From: Thraustochytrium sp. TN22
Lineage: Eukaryota > Sar > Bigyra > Thraustochytrida > Thraustochytriidae
Reading direction: 5' to 3'
NCBI GenBank assembly: GCA_013306675.1
Contig: JABLUY010000017.1
Coordinates: 62,001-126,000 of the forward strand
DNA length: 64,000 nucleotides
This document shows positions 10,629-51,737 of this stretch, one piece after another; the first letter of the stretch is position 1, and each line of letters opens with the position of its first letter. The translations under genes were made by a program, and so were the position numbers. The notes below the pieces were generated by a model. The model was given only the letters and a program-made list of their open reading frames with translations. It was not told the origin of the DNA and made no database searches.

Positions 10629-11846
10629 ATGGCGCGCGGGTGCGGAGGTGGCGGCGCTGCCGCCACCGCTTCGGACTCCGCGGCGCTCTGGCTGCTCGGG
10701 CTGTGCAACAACAGCCTCTTCGTGCTGCTCAATGCCGGCGCCGCCGACATCGAGCCAGGGGGCATCGGCCTCGTCTATCTGTGCAACAACCTGCCCAACC
10801 TCGCCGTCTCCGTGTCAGGGCCTTACTGGTTTCACCGCGTCTCGTACCGCACGCGCGTGCTCACTTGCGCGGCCTGCTGCGTCATGGCCACGGCGCTCGT
10901 CGCGCTCGCCACGGCCACGGCGCCTCGGCTGCTCGGCGTCATGCTCGGCTCCTTCGCACAGGGCCTCGGCGAGTCGTCCATGCTCGCACTGACTGCGCTC
11001 TATGGCCGCACCGAGCTCACGGCCTGGTCCAGCGGCACGGGCTTCGCCGGCATCTTCGGCTACGCCTTCAAGGCCTTCTTCGTCGACCTCTGCCGCCTCT
11101 CCTTTCGGGCCACGCTCCTGCTCGCCAATGTCCTTCCGGCCGGCTTCCTCCTCGCCTACTTTGTCCTCTTGCGCGCCCCGCCTCGCCACCAGCACACGCA
11201 CCACCGCCAAGCACTGCTCGCCAGCGATGACCAAGAGAACCTTGAGGTCGACCACCGCCCCATTGTCCGTCTCGACATGGCTGCCAGAATGCGCTTCTTT
11301 GCCACGCTATGGCCCTACACTGTCCCGCTCTTCTTCACCTACCTGGCCGAGTACGCCATGCAGGCTGGCGCCTGGACCGCCATCGGTTTCCCAAGCCCGA
11401 CCTCTGCCTCTGCGCGCGCCAGCTTCTACCTCTACTCCAACTGGCTCTACCAGGTGGGCGTCTTTCTCTCACGTTCGGCCGGGACCCTGCTCTCACTGCG
11501 CGTGCGCCACCTCTGGGCGCTCGCCGCATTGCAGCTCGCCCTGCTCTTCTTCTTCCTCCTCGATGCGCTTCAACACCTCTGGTGGCACACCCCACTCCTA
11601 CTGCTCTGCCTTCTCGTCGGCCTCATCGGCGGCTCCGTTTACGTGCACGTCTTTTGCATCATGGACCGTGACCTCCCACAGCGCCACATGCTCGAGTTTG
11701 CCAACGCCGCCGTCATGCCAGCCGCCACGGCCGCCACGGCGCTTGCCACCATTCTAGGCCTGCTCATCCAGGCCTGCCTATTTGCTGCCAACGACGTCCA
11801 TCAGTCGACGCTCGTCTCGTGCACAGCCTGGGACGCGCATGCCTGA
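10629..11846 (+). CDS. CLN3: CLN3/battenin-family lysosomal membrane protein
   Basis: The protein is 405 residues, close to the usual size for CLN3/Btn1. Family hallmarks are visible: an N-terminal WLLGLCNN segment, the first-helix NAGAADI region, TYLAEYAMQAG, and the YLYSNWLYQVGVFLSRS block matching the conserved YxxxYQxGVFxSRS motif. About 10-11 hydrophobic helices are spread over its length. The family resides in lysosomal or vacuolar membranes and affects pH homeostasis, amino-acid balance and glycerophosphodiester export (family knowledge). The gene is intronless here. It diverges from the glycosyltransferase-like gene over about 170 bp and converges on the Atg8-domain gene, whose stop lies 160 bp downstream. 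Both neighbours' products relate to endolysosomal biology, but co-function is only a guess. Confidence 0.93.
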   Translation: MARGCGGGGAAATASDSAALWLLGLCNNSLFVLLNAGAADIEPGGIGLVYLCNNLPNLAVSVSGPYWFHRVSYRTRVLTCAACCVMATALVALATATAPRLLGVMLGSFAQGLGESSMLALTALYGRTELTAWSSGTGFAGIFGYAFKAFFVDLCRLSFRATLLLANVLPAGFLLAYFVLLRAPPRHQHTHHRQALLASDDQENLEVDHRPIVRLDMAARMRFFATLWPYTVPLFFTYLAEYAMQAGAWTAIGFPSPTSASARASFYLYSNWLYQVGVFLSRSAGTLLSLRVRHLWALAALQLALLFFFLLDALQHLWWHTPLLLLCLLVGLIGGSVYVHVFCIMDRDLPQRHMLEFANAAVMPAATAATALATILGLLIQACLFAANDVHQSTLVSCTAWDAHA

Positions 11847-12007: not shown

Positions 12008-13811
12008 TCAAAGGAAGCGCGCGCCAAAAGACTCGTCGCGCGCATCAAAGTTCACGCAGGTCCAATCCCCATCTTCGTCGTCGTCGTCCTGCAGTTGCTG
12101 TTGCTGCTGTAAATGCGGCTGGTGCTGCTGCTGGTCATGGCGGTCGGCCGGCGGCGTGTCCCAAAGATCGCCGCGCCCCGACGAGCCTGCTCCGCGCAGC
12201 GCCGTCGTGCGGTCCACCTCAAATGCCGCGGCTCCCTGAACCAGGTTTTCCGCCAGCTTGCGCAATGATGCCGCGCCCGACGTCAAGGTCTCCTTGTTCA
12301 CCACGTTCTGCAGGTCCAGCTCCTCGATCTTGCGAAAGAGAAAGGCCTTGCCCAGCTCCTTAAATGACGGCTGCACAGCAGACGACCGCACATCTGAGTC
12401 CACGTTGATCCACTCCAGGTCGTCGTCGCTCTCTTCGCCATGTCGTCGACCCATGGCCGCTGCCGTCGACGATGACACCGCAGCAGCGGCAGCGGCCGCC
12501 GCCGCCACAGCTGATGCTGACTGTGTCTCGTGCATGTCCTCGGGAACCTGCGCCAGCTGCGCCGATCCAGAGCCAGAGCCATGCTGGAGCTGCCGCTGCA
12601 TGTGCGCTAGCAGCGTCGACTTGACCGCGCCCCCGTGCTGATCGCCTCGCGAGTCCTCCATGAAGGAGTGCCCGGCAACCGGGCCCAGCATGGACCCGCC
12701 GTCCGCGGTCGCTTTGCTGTCGTCGCTCAGAATCATCGACACAAAGAGCGCGTCGTTGCGAGCCGTCAGGGCCGACGCTGATGCAAGGCTCGCGCCGCCC
12801 GCATCGCTCGCCGCACTGCTCGTGGTCGCGCCCATCATCAGCTCCTCGTCCTCGTCGTCTTCGACGATACCTTCCGACCCGGCCTTCTCGCTCGCCTGCT
12901 CTTTTCTGTGCAGCATTTCCTCGCCCGCAGCAGCCGCGCCTGGAGGAGTGCCAGGACCGACGCGGCTCGCCTCGCTACCATCGCGACACGCCTCGGCCGC
13001 CGGCTTGGAGAGGTCCAGCTGAGGCGCCGGTGGGCTCTCCAGACCCATGCTTGCCTTCTTGGGCGCAAACACCGGCGACTTGTACAGCTCGTCCAGGTCC
13101 TCCGCGGTCGCCGGACACTCCAGTAGCGGCTGTTGCGCCGGCTTGCTTGCATCGTCTTCCTGCTCCCGCTCCTGTCCCTGTTCCTGTTCTTGCTCCTGCT
13201 GCTGCTGCTGCTGCTGCTCTTCCTGCTCTGGCTGCTTCTTCTCCTCGTTCTCTCGCGCTACGCTGTTCACCAGGTCGCCCACGGCCGCGCGCACCGTGTC
13301 GTCCTGGTCAGATGCCGTCGCGACAGGCGCCTGATCCTGATCCTGATCCTGGTCCTGGTCCTGGTCCTGGTCCTGGTCTTGGCCGGGGTCTTGATCCTCA
13401 TCCTCTGCCCTTCCCACAGCGGCCTCCGGATGCACGAGCACGTCGGCCTTGGAAGACGCCTTCGTCACATAGATCAAGTACAGGAAGCCGTCCTCGTCGC
13501 GGTGCCTGGCGTCGAGCTCCGTAACGCCAAGGGTGTCATCGGTGAGCTCCTCACCCTCATCCAGGAAAAGCTGTACCTTGGGCGGCCGGATGCGCACGTC
13601 CGACGCCGCGCTTGCCGCCTGCAACTCAGGATTCACCAGGTTCGACCGCACGAACTTGCGGAACTGGCTCACGTTGAGCCTTTCCGAGACGAGGAACTTG
13701 GTCCGCTTCGTGCGCCACCCCGGCACGCCGCGGTCCGCATCCGCCTGGCAGATGATCGGGATGCGCCCCGGGTTCTTGGCGCGAATCCGCCGCGCCGCGT
13801 CGCACATCTCC

Positions 13812-13845
<34 letters not shown>

Positions 13846-13858
13846 CGGCCGTCTCCAT
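12008..13858 (-). CDS. Atg8-like domain protein with long acidic/Gln-rich tail and two LIR-like motifs
   Basis: The start at 13858 gives 616 residues. Upstream in-frame codons are Arg/Gly low-complexity, so this ATG is preferred. After a poly-Gly run, residues about 22-133 match the Atg8 ubiquitin-like fold: GRIPIICQ, TKFLVSERLNVSQFRKFVR, then VQLFLDEGEEL and the family signature DEDGFLYLIY. The chain does not end in the exposed Gly needed for lipidation. About 480 residues follow: DQ repeats, Glu/Gln-rich and Ala-rich segments, and a helical stretch after residue 495. Two acidic Trp motifs, DDDLEWINV (W483) and DEDGDWTCV (W599), fit the Atg8-interacting (LIR/AIM) consensus. It may be a scaffold or selective-autophagy adaptor that self-associates or binds canonical Atg8. 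Function is inferred. Confidence 0.75.
13331..13380 (-). repeat. Hexanucleotide repeat coding Asp-Gln
   Basis: About eight head-to-tail copies of CTGGTC/CTGATC on the plus strand are translated on the minus strand as an alternating DQ tract inside the Atg8-domain protein. Such tracts are prone to length variation. Confidence 0.85.
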
Positions 13859-14774
13859 TGCGCCGCGCGACAGCCGCGAGAGGGGAGGAGCCTCGCTCGC
13901 TCCGGGAGATTTCCTTCCGCCTGCCCGCCCTCCGCCGCCGCACCGCCGCGCGCGCCGCTGCGCCGACACGGCACGGCACGCGCGCCGCCCGCCGCCCGCC
14001 GCCCGCCGCCGCCGCCGCCGCCGCCCGCGCGCGCGCCCCCGCGCCCGCGCCGCGCTCCTGTTTCGATTCCGGGTGACGACGACGACCCCTCCGCGCCGCC
14101 AGCCGCGGTCTGCGCAACGCGACACGTTCTCTGAGCGTGCCTTCTCTATTGATCGCCGAGAAGCTGACCGTGGGAGCAGCGCCTCCAAAGCAGCGCCTGC
14201 AGAAACTTGGGCCTGGCGACCGTTCATCTTGCTTATGACGCAGCAGATGGCCAAGTTGACGAGCCGAGACTGAGCCGAGACGTCGAACCGTCGTGGTAGA
14301 CGGTGATCAATCTCCTCGTTTCTCGATTCTTCTCGTCCCTCCTTTCTTCACGTTCCTCGGCTCTTCACGCTTCTCATTTCTTTTCGGTTCTCGCATTCGC
14401 ATTCGCAAAGGTGCTGTGAGTACGATACCGCCTCGGATCGTTGTTTTGACTTGATCGACTCGAAATCCGGCCCTCCTTGCTCGCTCCCTTGCTCGCTCCC
14501 TTGCTCGCTCGCTCTCTAGTTCGCCTCATCCCTTACCCGCTCGCTCGCGACGCCGCCCTCTTCTTCCGAGTCGCTGTTTCGCTGTTTCGCTGTTTCGCTG
14601 TTTCGCTGTTTCGCTTGCTTGCTCAGGCTTCCTTCGACTCGGAGGTGCTCCGTGACTCGTTGTCGTGAAGAAAGGACCTGGACACTCCAGAGTCGTCCCT
14701 GCTCCGTGGGTCTGGCGGCGGATCGGCAGACAAGCAAAAAGGATAATCAAAGATCGGGACGCCGCCGGCGCAAG
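13859..14774. promoter_or_regulatory. Divergent intergenic region with short tandem repeats
   Basis: The region lies between the Atg8-domain gene (-) and the GH3 gene (+). The first 250 bp is C/G trinucleotide-rich. At 14473-14517 a CTTGCTCGCTC repeat occurs and at 14574-14614 five copies of GCTGTTTC. No coding sequence is supported, and promoters of both genes should lie here. Confidence 0.45.
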
Positions 14775-46968: not shown

Positions 46969-47590
46969 CTACCTGTGGAGGGAAGCAAAGTAGTGCGCCT
47001 CGAGCAACTTGAGCGAGCGCGCGACGTCATCCTCGAGCGCAGCAACCTTGACGTCCACCGTGGCGCAGTCCTGGTCAAACTTGGCATTCTGCTCGTCCAC
47101 CAGGCGGTTCAGACCCTCCAGGTTGGACGTGAGCACGGACAACTTGAGTTCCGTGATCATCTTGAGCAGACCCTGCGCCTCGCTAACCTGCGACGGCCCC
47201 GTGGGCATGATGTTCCAGCGTCAGTCAGTCTCGAGCACGCCGCTTGGGCGCATCAGGTAAACGTACCACAGTGGCCGCGTTGGCCGTGAGCTGCAGACGC
47301 TCCCTCTCCGCGGACTCGCGGCCCTGCACCTGTGTGTTGTGTGAGCGCGAAGCGAACGTCAGCGACCAAGCTCGAGCGCGGGTCGTGCGGCGCGGTGGAT
47401 CTTGGTGGGCTCGGTCGCCACCGAGCTGGCGCCGCCGCCGCCGCTGCTGGCGCCGCCGCCGGCCCCCGCCGGGCGAGCCGCGTACCTTGGTGCTGGCGAG
47501 GATGCGCATGTAGCTGTCCATGATGGTCTCGAGCGAGTCGCGCAGCTTCTGCGCGAACGTCTGGTGCGGCGAGTAGCCGCCGTCCGCCAT
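46969..47590 (-). CDS. MED22: Mediator subunit 22, 3 exons
   Basis: Exons are 47590-47486, 47329-47267 and 47187-46969, giving 128 residues. Introns (156 nt, donor GTACGC; 79 nt, donor GTACGT) end in ACACAG and CGCAG and are all phase 0. The reading matches MED22/Surf5. It has an N-terminal helix (FAQKLRDSLETIMDSYMRIL), a second helix around QGRESAERERLQLTANAATVV, a SEAQGLLKMITELK segment and a long C-terminal helix (LNRLVDEQNAKFDQD to LLEAHYFASL). MED22 is an essential head-module subunit that partners MED11 and contacts MED17. Each exon alone is too short to be recognised by length. Its ATG shares a CATG with an unused plus-strand ATG of the neighbouring TLDc frame. Confidence 0.87.
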
Positions 47591-47789
47591 GGTGGCCGCG
47601 CCGCGAGCCGCAAACGCCGTTCCGGGTTTGCCGCCGCCGCCACGGCCGCCCGCGCGCGCGCGCCAGGGCCCGCGAGGAGACGGGCTCGCGCCTGGCCTTG
47701 CGGCCGGCCGCCGGCCCGCCCCGCGCGCTGGAGCTCGCGAGCGGGCGAGAGAGGCGAGGCGAGGCGGGGCGAGGCCGCGCGGCGTGACG
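47591..47789. promoter_or_regulatory. Divergent promoter of MED22 and the TLDc gene
   Basis: The spacer is 199 bp, very G+C-rich, and ends in GAGGC/GAGGCGG pentamers (47753-47777) just before the TLDc ATG at 47790. Confidence 0.4.
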
Positions 47790-49415
47790 ATGGCGGCCAT
47801 GGACGCCGGGCGCCGATATCGTCCCCGGCGGCGGCGCGTCGCAGCAGCGCTCGCGCTCGTGGCGGCGCTCGCGGCGGCCAACGGCGCCGCGGCGGCCGGC
47901 GAGAGCGACGCGCAGTGGCGCTCGCTGCGCGCCTGGGCCCCGCGCGCCCTGGACGAGGTCGCAGCCACGGCCGACCACGACCTGGACCGTGCGTACGAGC
48001 ACGAACACGAACACGAGGCCGAGGCCGAGGATGAGGATGAGGACGAGCACGAGCACGAGCACAAGGACGAGCACGAGGGGAAGGACGAGAGCGGCGCCGT
48101 TAGCCGAGATGGGCTTGGGAACGGAGACGCGCACGGGATTCACGGGGACGACTACGGCCACCCGGACGACGCCATCGGCGTCATCTCCGCCAAGCACGCG
48201 TATGACTCCGTCTCGCATGAGGATCTTCATGAGATCTCCGTTGCGGACGCGGCGGCCAAGGCAGCGGCGGACGATGCGTCCGCCGCGTCCGCCGCGACGC
48301 CTGGCAGCGGCACTGAGGACGCCCGTGAGGGCACGGCAACGCGCACGGTCGGAGGCGGCGAGGCGGCCGCGGGCACAAGCTCGGCGGAGCTGCCTCAACT
48401 GCTGGCACGGCACGGTGGACTCGGCGACGAAGACGAGTACCTGTGGCTTCCAGACACGCCCGGGCCGTTCCTGGTTGGCTTCGTCCTGGCCCTTGGCGTA
48501 GGCGCCCTGGCGTACCGGCGCAGCCAGCGCGTGCGAACGGCCGTCTCCTTCACAAGTGCGTGGCTCGCGCGACGCTTCCACAGCTGCGCACCGCGCGTGG
48601 CGGCCTGGGTGCGCGCGCGGCTGCCAGACCAGGGCAAGCGCTCCGGGGCGCGCGCCAAGCCGTACTCCTTGTTGCCGCGCGCCAAGTTTAGCGACCTGCA
48701 CGAGCACGTCAGCGCGCTGGCGTCCAGCGTGTCCAAGACGGCCAAGGACGCCGCCGAGGAGCGTTCCGGCGCAGCCGGCAAGCTCACTGAGCTCAAATCG
48801 CTAGCGCAAACCGGCAAGTACCGGCCGCGCCGTCGCGGGGTGCCGGCCACCTTTCGCTCGGTGGTCAGCGCGGACTCTATGGACGCCTTGGTGGATGCCC
48901 TGCCAGAGCGCCTTGGCATCATGGACTGGACGCTCCTGTACTCCAGCGAGCTGCACGGCTACAATCTGGCTACCGCTTACCAGCGAGCCCAAGGCAAGGG
49001 CCCCTTTGTGATCGTGGTCATGGACCTGAACCGCTTCGTCTTCGGGGCGTTCTCCGCCGAGCCGCTGCAGTGTGGCGGTCGCCAGTACTACGGCAACGGC
49101 GAGACCTTCATCTTTCAGCTCGAGCCGAGCTTTCGGCGCCACGGCTGGAGTGGCGGCAACTCGCAGTTCGTGCTGTCAACGAATGAGATGCTTGCCTTTG
49201 GTGGCGGGGGGCACTTTGCGCTCTGGCTCGACGCCATGTTTGACCAGGGTTCCAGCGAACCCGGCTCCACGACCTTTGAGACCTACGAGCGCCTCTCGAG
49301 CCAGCCGCGCTTCAAGTGTTGTGCCGTTGAGATCTGGGGCTTTGTCTCGCCCATGCTGGGCTCCCCGTCCAAGAGGTCGCGCAAGGTGCCCTTTCCGGCC
49401 TTTGGCATGCGCTGA
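47790..49415 (+). CDS. Membrane-anchored TLDc-domain protein
   Basis: The start at 47790 (541 residues) is chosen because it opens a clean signal peptide (basic stretch, then VAAALALVAALAAANGAAAA). The longer frame from 47589 is Arg/Pro shadow. An acidic, His-rich luminal segment (EHEHEHEAEAEDEDEDEHE) follows, then one membrane helix near 225-243 (FLVGFVLALGVGALAY) and a cytosolic basic linker. The TLDc domain (about 348-515) includes WTLLYSSELHGYN, VIVVMDLNRFVFGAF, GNGETFIFQL and SQFVLSTNEMLAFGGGGHFALWLD. TLDc proteins (OXR1, NCOA7, TLDC2) bind the V-ATPase and modulate it and oxidative stress tolerance. A transmembrane TLDc with an acidic luminal arm is unusual. Intronless. Confidence 0.85.
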   Translation: MAAMDAGRRYRPRRRRVAAALALVAALAAANGAAAAGESDAQWRSLRAWAPRALDEVAATADHDLDRAYEHEHEHEAEAEDEDEDEHEHEHKDEHEGKDESGAVSRDGLGNGDAHGIHGDDYGHPDDAIGVISAKHAYDSVSHEDLHEISVADAAAKAAADDASAASAATPGSGTEDAREGTATRTVGGGEAAAGTSSAELPQLLARHGGLGDEDEYLWLPDTPGPFLVGFVLALGVGALAYRRSQRVRTAVSFTSAWLARRFHSCAPRVAAWVRARLPDQGKRSGARAKPYSLLPRAKFSDLHEHVSALASSVSKTAKDAAEERSGAAGKLTELKSLAQTGKYRPRRRGVPATFRSVVSADSMDALVDALPERLGIMDWTLLYSSELHGYNLATAYQRAQGKGPFVIVVMDLNRFVFGAFSAEPLQCGGRQYYGNGETFIFQLEPSFRRHGWSGGNSQFVLSTNEMLAFGGGGHFALWLDAMFDQGSSEPGSTTFETYERLSSQPRFKCCAVEIWGFVSPMLGSPSKRSRKVPFPAFGMR

Positions 49416-49640: not shown

Positions 49641-51737
49641 TCAAGTGATGGCCTGCATGGTCTTGACTGGGTCGCCGAGCGGCGGTCTCGAGCAAATGGC
49701 CTTCATGGTGTCGCCCGAGAGCATCGCGCTCAGCGCGCCAAAGGCTTTCAATACAAGGCCTCGCCGGCCGCCGTGCAAGCGCAGCGTGGACAGCAGAGTG
49801 CTGGTGGAGTCAAGCTGCTCACTGAGCATGAGCCTGTTGCGCTCGGTGCAGGCGAGCCTACGGAGTACCTCGCACGCACTCTCCTGGACGCGGACGTCCC
49901 TACTGCAGGAGCGTATGGCCGCGAGGACAGAGGTGCCAGCGTCGCCGTTGTCGCAGAGGGCAACTGCGATGCGCGGGCTCTCAGCGAGGCTGGCGAGCGC
50001 CTCACAGGCATGCCTCTGGACGCTGGGTTCCCCCGGGTGCGCGGCCATGGCCGCGAGCACGTCGGCACTGGCGCTTGTGTCCTGACCAATAATGTCCTTG
50101 TGGCGGGCCAAGGCGCTCAGAGTGGCAATGACCCGGCACGCGGCCGCCTGTACGCGGCCATCGCACCGGTGGCGCTGCATGACGCGCGTGATCACGTCAA
50201 CTGCGCACAGGTCTTGGACGAGCACCTGGCGATCGCGCTCGTTCAGAGTCAGCTTGCTCAGCACACTCAGCGCGTAGACCTGCAGCTTGGCGTCCTCCGG
50301 AGAAAGCTGGATCGCCTGGAGCAACAGGTCAGCCCCGCGCGGGTGCTTGCTGATGCTCTCCTGATTTTGGGAGTCGGCCGAGAGGAAGAGCAGGGCGCCG
50401 CACCCGTTCGCCTGCACACGTCCGTCGCGGGCATGGGCTTCCATGCTCGCGAGGACGTGGAAGCAGGCGTCGTGCTCGTGTCCCAAGGTCCTTGCGTTCC
50501 TGTCGTCCGCGGCAAGGGCTCCGAGCGCGCCCAGGGCGCTCACCTGGACGGCTGCGTCTCGTGGTAGGTTGCGGATAGCCGCGACAATGTCGACACAGGC
50601 GCTGTGCTCCTGGCCCAGAAGGATCTGGTTCACCGGGTCGCTGCAAAGGTTGCGCAACGCCAAGCAGGCCTGAATCTGTACCGGGGCGACGTACGGGTGT
50701 GCGCGCATGGCCTCGACGATGTCGGTGCCGGCTCGCAGTGTCTGGCCGAGCATCGCCAGGTTGCGCGGGTGGGCGGCCAGGTGTCGCAAAAGGCGACAGC
50801 AAGACGCCTGCACGAGCTCATTCGCTGGGTGATTTCGCATCGCTGCCAAGGCGTCCGAGCCTGCGCGCAGGTCGAACCCGATCACTTTGGCGTTCTGCAG
50901 GTCGCAGCACGCTAGCGTCCATAGCACGGTGCTGGCTGCCAGCTGGAGCGTGCAGTCGTCCGGATCCAGCCGCATGGCGGCCAGAATGTCGCCTGCGACT
51001 TTTAGCTCCTGGCACAGGAGCACCTGGTTCGCCTTGTGCTTGGAGGCCAGCACCACGAGCGCGCCGCACGCCTGCCCTTGAAGGGGCCCGTTCTCTGGGT
51101 GCCTTCGCATCGCAGTGACGATGGCGTCGCCGGCGCGCACCTGTTGACCCAAAATCTGCTGGTCCTCCTTGCTCCTCAGCGCCAGCTTGCAAAGTGCGTC
51201 CATCGCCGCGACCTGGACCAAACTCTCCTCCCGGTGCGTGTCCATGGCCGCAACGATATGCTTCCCAATGCGTCTACCGCCCGAGGTCCCGAGCAGGTCC
51301 TTGAGCGCGCTGCACGCGCTCGTCTGCACTCTGCTCACGCCCGCATGCCTTTGCATGGCGCCCAAGATGGCGTCCACAGCACTCAGGCGATCGTGCGAGA
51401 GCACCTTCTTGTTCGCCTCGCTCTTGTGCGCAAGCGTCTGCAGAGCGTCACAAGCCGCCACAACAAGCTCGACATCATCCACGTGCGCGCGCATTGCGCT
51501 CACGATATCCTTTTCCACGCGCAGCTTCTGCACGAGGTCTTCCTGGTTGTGCTGCGCTATGCTCGCCAGGTCCTGGATCGCCGCGCACGCCATGCCTTGC
51601 ACCTCGGGGTCGTCCCTGCTCTTGCGCATCGCCTTCGCCACGTGTTTGAGCTCCTCGCAGCCCTCGAACTTGCGCTTCACGCCGCGCGCCTTGCCCTTGA
51701 CCGCCATGCCGCAGCTCGGCGCAGCCGCCGCGGCCAC
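49641..51737 (-). CDS. Armadillo-repeat protein
   Basis: This 698-residue intronless ORF has a basic N-terminus (KGKARGVKRKFEG) and is built almost wholly from about 14 armadillo-type repeats of 42-46 residues. They share the pattern VxAMRxHPxxxxVQxxACxALxxLA followed by NxxxLGxxLxAxxxI. No F-box, U-box or kinase domain is joined. Such repeats are common protein-binding scaffolds. Similar solitary ARM arrays abound in protists, and the KRK-type N-terminus could be a nuclear signal. A start at 51707 would remove ten Ala-rich residues. Partner and function are unknown. Confidence 0.8.
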   Translation of the reverse strand: MAAAAAPSCGMAVKGKARGVKRKFEGCEELKHVAKAMRKSRDDPEVQGMACAAIQDLASIAQHNQEDLVQKLRVEKDIVSAMRAHVDDVELVVAACDALQTLAHKSEANKKVLSHDRLSAVDAILGAMQRHAGVSRVQTSACSALKDLLGTSGGRRIGKHIVAAMDTHREESLVQVAAMDALCKLALRSKEDQQILGQQVRAGDAIVTAMRRHPENGPLQGQACGALVVLASKHKANQVLLCQELKVAGDILAAMRLDPDDCTLQLAASTVLWTLACCDLQNAKVIGFDLRAGSDALAAMRNHPANELVQASCCRLLRHLAAHPRNLAMLGQTLRAGTDIVEAMRAHPYVAPVQIQACLALRNLCSDPVNQILLGQEHSACVDIVAAIRNLPRDAAVQVSALGALGALAADDRNARTLGHEHDACFHVLASMEAHARDGRVQANGCGALLFLSADSQNQESISKHPRGADLLLQAIQLSPEDAKLQVYALSVLSKLTLNERDRQVLVQDLCAVDVITRVMQRHRCDGRVQAAACRVIATLSALARHKDIIGQDTSASADVLAAMAAHPGEPSVQRHACEALASLAESPRIAVALCDNGDAGTSVLAAIRSCSRDVRVQESACEVLRRLACTERNRLMLSEQLDSTSTLLSTLRLHGGRRGLVLKAFGALSAMLSGDTMKAICSRPPLGDPVKTMQAIT

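Follow-up and report, generated by a model that had tools for sequence, protein, structure and literature searches.

Gene structure and neighbourhood

The window analysed here, a 64,000-nucleotide stretch of a Thraustochytrium sp. TN22 contig with a GC content of 65%, carries on its minus strand (12008..13858) a gene for a 616-residue protein with an Atg8-like domain at its N terminus. The frame opens with an ATG at 13858, closes with a stop codon ending at 12008 and contains no internal stops, in agreement with a sequence-only reading that had proposed a 616-residue protein without giving its strand. That reading had also named CLN3 as the convergent neighbour, and this gene was indeed found on the plus strand (10629..11846, 405 amino acids; Pfam CLN3, 1.8e-71). 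For a eukaryote, such adjacency is weak evidence of shared function. Elsewhere in the window, an ARM-repeat protein on the minus strand (49641-51707; LRRK2 ARM model, 2.5e-37) has as a close neighbour a TLDc-domain protein on the plus strand (47589-49415; 6.7e-38).

The coding potential of the locus was assessed by comparing all six frames in 11 windows of about 100 codons, using codon scores derived from three frames nearby. The gene frame had the top score in nine of these. In the other two, where the DQ and Q repeats are located, the gene frame was outscored by one antisense frame (0.41 against 0.24 for the gene frame in the window from residue 151, and 0.18 against 0.16 in that from residue 201). 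Such antisense frames, together with the long chance ORFs that come with 65% GC, would be expected if the gene model were an artefact that joins one gene for the domain to another for the tail, or that reads through an intron. We regard this as very unlikely, given that the protein is encoded by one ORF whose codon score is positive where domain and tail meet (in the windows that start at residues 101 and 151), and that GC at the second codon position was the lowest of the three positions in 19 of 19 windows of the gene. Directly upstream (13859-14254) the codon score was negative in all six frames; a longer ORF including this stretch is therefore probably not the gene, which probably starts at or near 13858.

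The gene is apparently single-copy. Searches of its own genome at an E value of 0.01 gave no second copy of the protein, the other matches being the organism's own Atg8 (4.0e-4) and a repetitive stretch. A match to residues 207-347 on contig C45 (E 0.0039), one to about residues 533-599 on contig C111 (E 0.0028) and two weaker ones all lay on repetitive or Gln-rich stretches and were set aside as probably due to composition. Pfam matches to Presenilin and BAF1_ABF1 were likewise set aside, as they lay under the cut-offs and on the acidic/Gln stretch. Orthologues were sought by tblastn in viral contigs (queries: the whole protein, the organism's own Atg8, the Atg8-like domain, and these latter two aligned with each other) and in prokaryote genomes (query: the aligned pair); no relative was found in these collections, which are not aimed at eukaryotes.

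An Atg8-like domain without the lipidation glycine

Residues 21-133 (13460..13798, minus strand) matched the Pfam ATG8 profile with 39.2 bits (cut-off 27, E 8.5e-10), and a phmmer search of PDB chains returned LC3A as the best match by sequence (1.7e-8). For residue-level comparison, the protein was aligned by MAFFT with LC3A, whose last four letters were entered as we presume them to be, and with the organism's own Atg8. Relative to both, the domain contains a 14-residue insert (residues 75-88; 13595..13636, minus strand), located after the helix that ends in SNL. The 616-residue protein and the organism's own Atg8 also differ ahead of the domain, where the latter has MQFKKEHPFEKRE and the former a Gly-rich stretch.

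The docking surface for LIR (LC3-interacting region) motifs was examined at fifteen positions that we take, from LC3B, to form it. The domain was identical to the organism's own Atg8 at nine of the 15, compared with 20 of 91 positions elsewhere (one-sided Fisher p = 0.004), and to LC3A at eight of 15, compared with 21 of 91 (p = 0.02); as some of the docking positions also belong to the core of the fold, these values measure above-average conservation and not binding. Positions 23, 32, 34, 51, 53 and 108 (LC3 numbering) are all kept, whereas position 19 has changed to Ala. In the second pocket, positions 52, 54, 63 and 66 are hydrophobic, with Ser at 55 and Asn at 70. The residues at 19, 55 and 70 are thus of a different kind. 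Judged from the alignment, the docking positions thus appear to be largely kept.

The C-terminal end of the domain is different. Where the organism's own Atg8 and LC3A have TFG, the alignment places SSK (residues 135-137; 13448..13456, minus strand), so that by sequence the domain lacks the residue normally used for membrane conjugation. The Atg8 domain at the N terminus, the positions of its GRIPIICQ and DEDGFLYLIY segments, the missing Gly at its end and the long acidic tail fused to it had all been read from the sequence beforehand, and each was confirmed. An FG that resembles the site at which ATG4 processes Atg8 does occur at the far C terminus, within ESFGARFL (12011-12034, minus strand). 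It lies about 480 residues past the domain, and FG fell within the last ten residues in 1.4% of shuffles; we treat it as a curiosity.

Loss of the Gly also bears on whether the protein is simply a standard Atg8 precursor whose C-terminal extension, though very long, is cut off by ATG4. According to a survey of algal ATG8 homologues, extensions after the Gly are variable and can be large in some algae, and the Gly itself was conserved in every homologue surveyed (PMC11449223). With SSK in place of a processing site that includes Gly, a precursor of this kind is extremely improbable. C-terminal Gly loss in Plasmodium is reported for Atg12, not Atg8 (PMC3416769).

The acidic tail and its tryptophan motifs

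Beyond residue 140, the protein continues for 476 residues with a net charge of −58. In a single-sequence model, which has no alignment behind it, an E/Q-rich stretch (residues 184-235; 13154..13309, minus strand) formed one long helix with a pLDDT of about 75 over most of its length, and helices of low confidence were seen within residues 499-544 (12227..12364, minus strand); little other structure was modelled in the tail. Three of the protein's four Trp residues are in the tail, and two of them lie in acidic motifs: W483 in DDDLEWINV (residues 478-486; 12401..12427, minus strand) and W599 in DEDGDWTCV (residues 594-602; 12053..12079, minus strand). Both have an aromatic-x-x-[ILV] core with an acidic flank.

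To express this likeness as a number, a rule was set after the motifs had been seen, requiring an acidic residue at −1, three or more acids among the six residues before the Trp and I/L/V at +3. Judged by this post hoc rule, two motifs were present in 0.0145% of 200,000 shuffled tails; when the tail was shuffled in blocks instead (three block sizes, 100,000 shuffles for each), the share was 0.009-0.012%. W-x-x-[ILV] alone occurred twice or more in 4.5% of tail shuffles. As a further comparison, 18 ORFs (the gene and 17 controls, not all of them proven genes) were taken from the 24 ATG-started frames of at least 330 residues in the window, six overlapping frames being omitted. Just one of 141 Trp residues in the 17 other ORFs (13,256 residues) satisfied the rule, compared with two of four here. 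Within the terms of the post hoc rule, the presence of two acidic Trp motifs beyond chance is supported.

The sequence-only reading had called these motifs LIR-like. Their placement and acidic character stood, but neither conforms to the formal LIR patterns: with the patterns of PMC5119064, there were no xLIR and no cLIR matches in the 616 residues. The xLIR pattern is broken in both motifs by position 5 (Asn and Cys), and cLIR by position 1 (Leu and Gly) and, in the second motif, by Thr at position 4 as well. The organism's own pathway proteins do contain xLIR matches, namely DEFILL at the C terminus of ATG4 (L010) and DGFIDL in ATG3 (L016).

The failure of both motifs to fit either pattern is what would be expected if the domain were an Atg8 relic reused for another purpose, the Trp motifs being fortuitous or meant for other partners and the protein having no Atg8-dependent function. 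Trp-acidic motifs can also be read by TPR or coat proteins, which gives possible classes of such partners. The tail is, moreover, largely repetitive and probably evolving loosely. The kept docking positions speak against such a relic, as does the presence in both motifs of an acid at −1, a branched aliphatic residue at +3 and an acidic stretch, a combination so scarce among the control Trp residues. We consider the relic explanation rather unlikely, though still the chief rival.

Because pocket and Trp motifs share one chain, the protein might alternatively be an autoinhibited switch, in which a tail motif occupies the protein's own pocket until phosphorylation, or competition from a LIR partner, releases it. 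Fusions of LIR peptides to LC3 or LGG-2 are among the solved structures (for example 3wan, 5dpr and 5azh), so chains of this type have been constructed. The full-length AlphaFold model, computed without an alignment, is uninformative on the matter (pLDDT 41, pTM 0.21), being too poor to show either fold or docking. We give the switch a small chance.

Atg8 pathway components in the same genome

The 37.9-Mb assembly (453 contigs) was searched for the remainder of the Atg8 pathway. ATG8 matches were found at six loci: the 616-residue gene, a canonical Atg8 and four divergent loci. The canonical Atg8 (L001, contig C210) scored 159 bits, and its TFG is followed by 25 further residues. The divergent loci, with the frames numbered within each locus, are L003:1501-1779 (contig C59), L004:1501-1779 (contig C169; 39.5 bits), L005:1501-1782 (contig C436; 37.6 bits) and L006:1501-1725 (contig C48). 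Each frame ends exactly in TFG, so no trimming would be needed before conjugation. They form two closely similar pairs: L003 and L004 are 96.5% identical across the 3.3 kb compared, and L005 and L006 are 89-95% identical in three pieces.

Also present were ATG4 (5.8e-81), ATG12 (5.6e-11) and, at two loci (7.3e-58 and 7.3e-10), members of the Atg3/Atg10 family; which of the two is ATG3 and which is ATG10-like is our reading. The genome thus encodes a good part of the standard conjugation pathway. With the canonical Atg8, ATG4, ATG12 and both Atg3/Atg10-family loci accounted for, the 616-residue gene is an extra member of the Atg8 family. The NBR1 FW domain was found at three separate loci.

In a stretch of contig C124 (26703-41142), a frame 3044 residues long encodes a PfaA-type polyunsaturated fatty acid (PUFA) synthase. 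Its joined matches to PfaA summed to 2539.7 bits, some of the profile being matched more than once, against a cut-off of 1010.1 that was passed by none of 14 control genomes. Beside it, on the opposite strand, lies a 2083-residue frame with weaker matches to the PfaA model. A PfaA-type frame with an opposite-strand neighbour is the arrangement expected of thraustochytrids, and the PfaA match, taken with the window's 65% GC and its long ORFs, would fit such an organism.

Comparison with known modifier-like proteins

Compared with Atg8, LC3 and GABARAP, the protein shares a ubiquitin-like domain that matches Pfam ATG8 and, by alignment, most of the LIR-docking positions, but it differs in the absence of a C-terminal Gly, in its 476-residue tail and in the 14-residue insert. 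The four divergent Atg8-like loci of the same genome are likewise divergent family members, two of them with Pfam scores close to that of the domain. Unlike the 616-residue protein, which has lost the Gly, they end in TFG and could be conjugated untrimmed. In this they resemble Atg8 homologues described in trypanosomatids or Apicomplexa that have no residues after the Gly; an expansion of the family is described there too (PMC10104450). For a divergent Atg8 of Plasmodium, a non-autophagic role has been reported in which the docking interface is needed for localisation (PMC9973341).

Among adaptors of autophagy, p62 and NBR1 have an N-terminal ubiquitin-fold domain with an acidic Trp LIR further on. 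The 616-residue protein resembles them in having a ubiquitin-fold domain at the N terminus and acidic Trp motifs downstream, although its domain is of the Atg8 type and not PB1. A Pfam scan up to an E value of 1 gave no PB1, UBA, ZZ or FW domain in the protein.

A layout closer to that seen here is found in the SUMO family. In Rad60, Esc2 and NIP45, a modifier-like domain is fixed inside a longer chain, and in Rad60 motifs for its own modifier have been proposed in that same chain (PMC2946365). The 616-residue protein likewise holds a modifier-like domain within a longer chain and has no conjugatable Gly. The likeness is one of layout and not of kinship: Rad60, Esc2 and NIP45 belong to the SUMO family, act in DNA repair and carry their domains C-terminally. 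In Rad60 itself, the damage response proved independent of two of the three proposed motifs, SBM1 and SBM2, and the third, SBM3, had a structural role (same source); caution is therefore called for with the motifs at W483 and W599. A small search of the open-access literature, covering papers in the portions available, found no description of an Atg8 domain within a longer LIR-bearing protein, which is weak evidence.

The Rad60 comparison also raises the prospect that the domain regulates the conjugation machinery by holding ATG3 or ATG7, recruiting or sequestering them much as SLD2 of Rad60 holds Ubc9. An interaction with Ubc9 is reported for SLD2 of Rad60, Esc2 and NIP45 alike (PMC2946365), and the xLIR match in the organism's own ATG3 could enter the kept pocket. 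A regulator of this sort, however, has no need of the tail Trp motifs, and we think it quite unlikely.

A possible bridging adaptor

The domain layout is real and unusual, and the mechanism that we propose for it, on the strength of sequence features, is plausible. Kept docking positions, a lost Gly and added ligand-like motifs would together suit an adaptor that bridges lipidated Atg8 and LIR partners. The N-terminal domain descends from Atg8, as its profile match shows. The alignment shows that it has lost the Gly needed for conjugation and, at the level of sequence, has retained hydrophobic positions into which the aromatic residue of a LIR peptide fits. It should thus remain soluble and still be able to bind LIR partners. 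The long acidic tail might serve as a spacer, which the model weakly suggests to be mostly disordered with some helix, and its motifs at W483 and W599 could bind the cell's canonical Atg8 in its lipidated form. Once so bound, the tail would bring the protein, along with any partner in its own pocket, to autophagic or other Atg8-coated membranes. A partner for this is available in the canonical Atg8 (L001) encoded in the genome, but the departure of both motifs from xLIR and cLIR, unlike those of the organism's own ATG4 and ATG3, speaks against it, as do the altered residues at positions 19, 55 and 70 of the docking surface. By analogy with the systems above, we favour an integral, non-conjugated Atg8-like domain protein working as a bridging adaptor tentatively, at somewhat below an even chance.

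The same components could in principle allow self-docking and chain formation, since pocket and Trp motifs occur in one protein. In integral Atg8 domains with motifs of their own, the pocket of one molecule might take up the Trp motif of the next, so that chains or condensates build up head to tail and dock on lipidated Atg8 as well, a prospect that we rate as slight. If true, such assemblies would provide autophagic or endolysosomal membranes with a natural scaffold; we know of no described system in which Atg8 domains form such a scaffold.

Atg8 is familiar as a small free modifier. A bridging adaptor of the kind proposed would extend to Atg8 the principle of SUMO-like domains, in which the domain is fixed within a protein, the conjugation residue is gone and the docking positions are kept. 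It would also separate Atg8 recognition from membrane anchoring within a natural protein.
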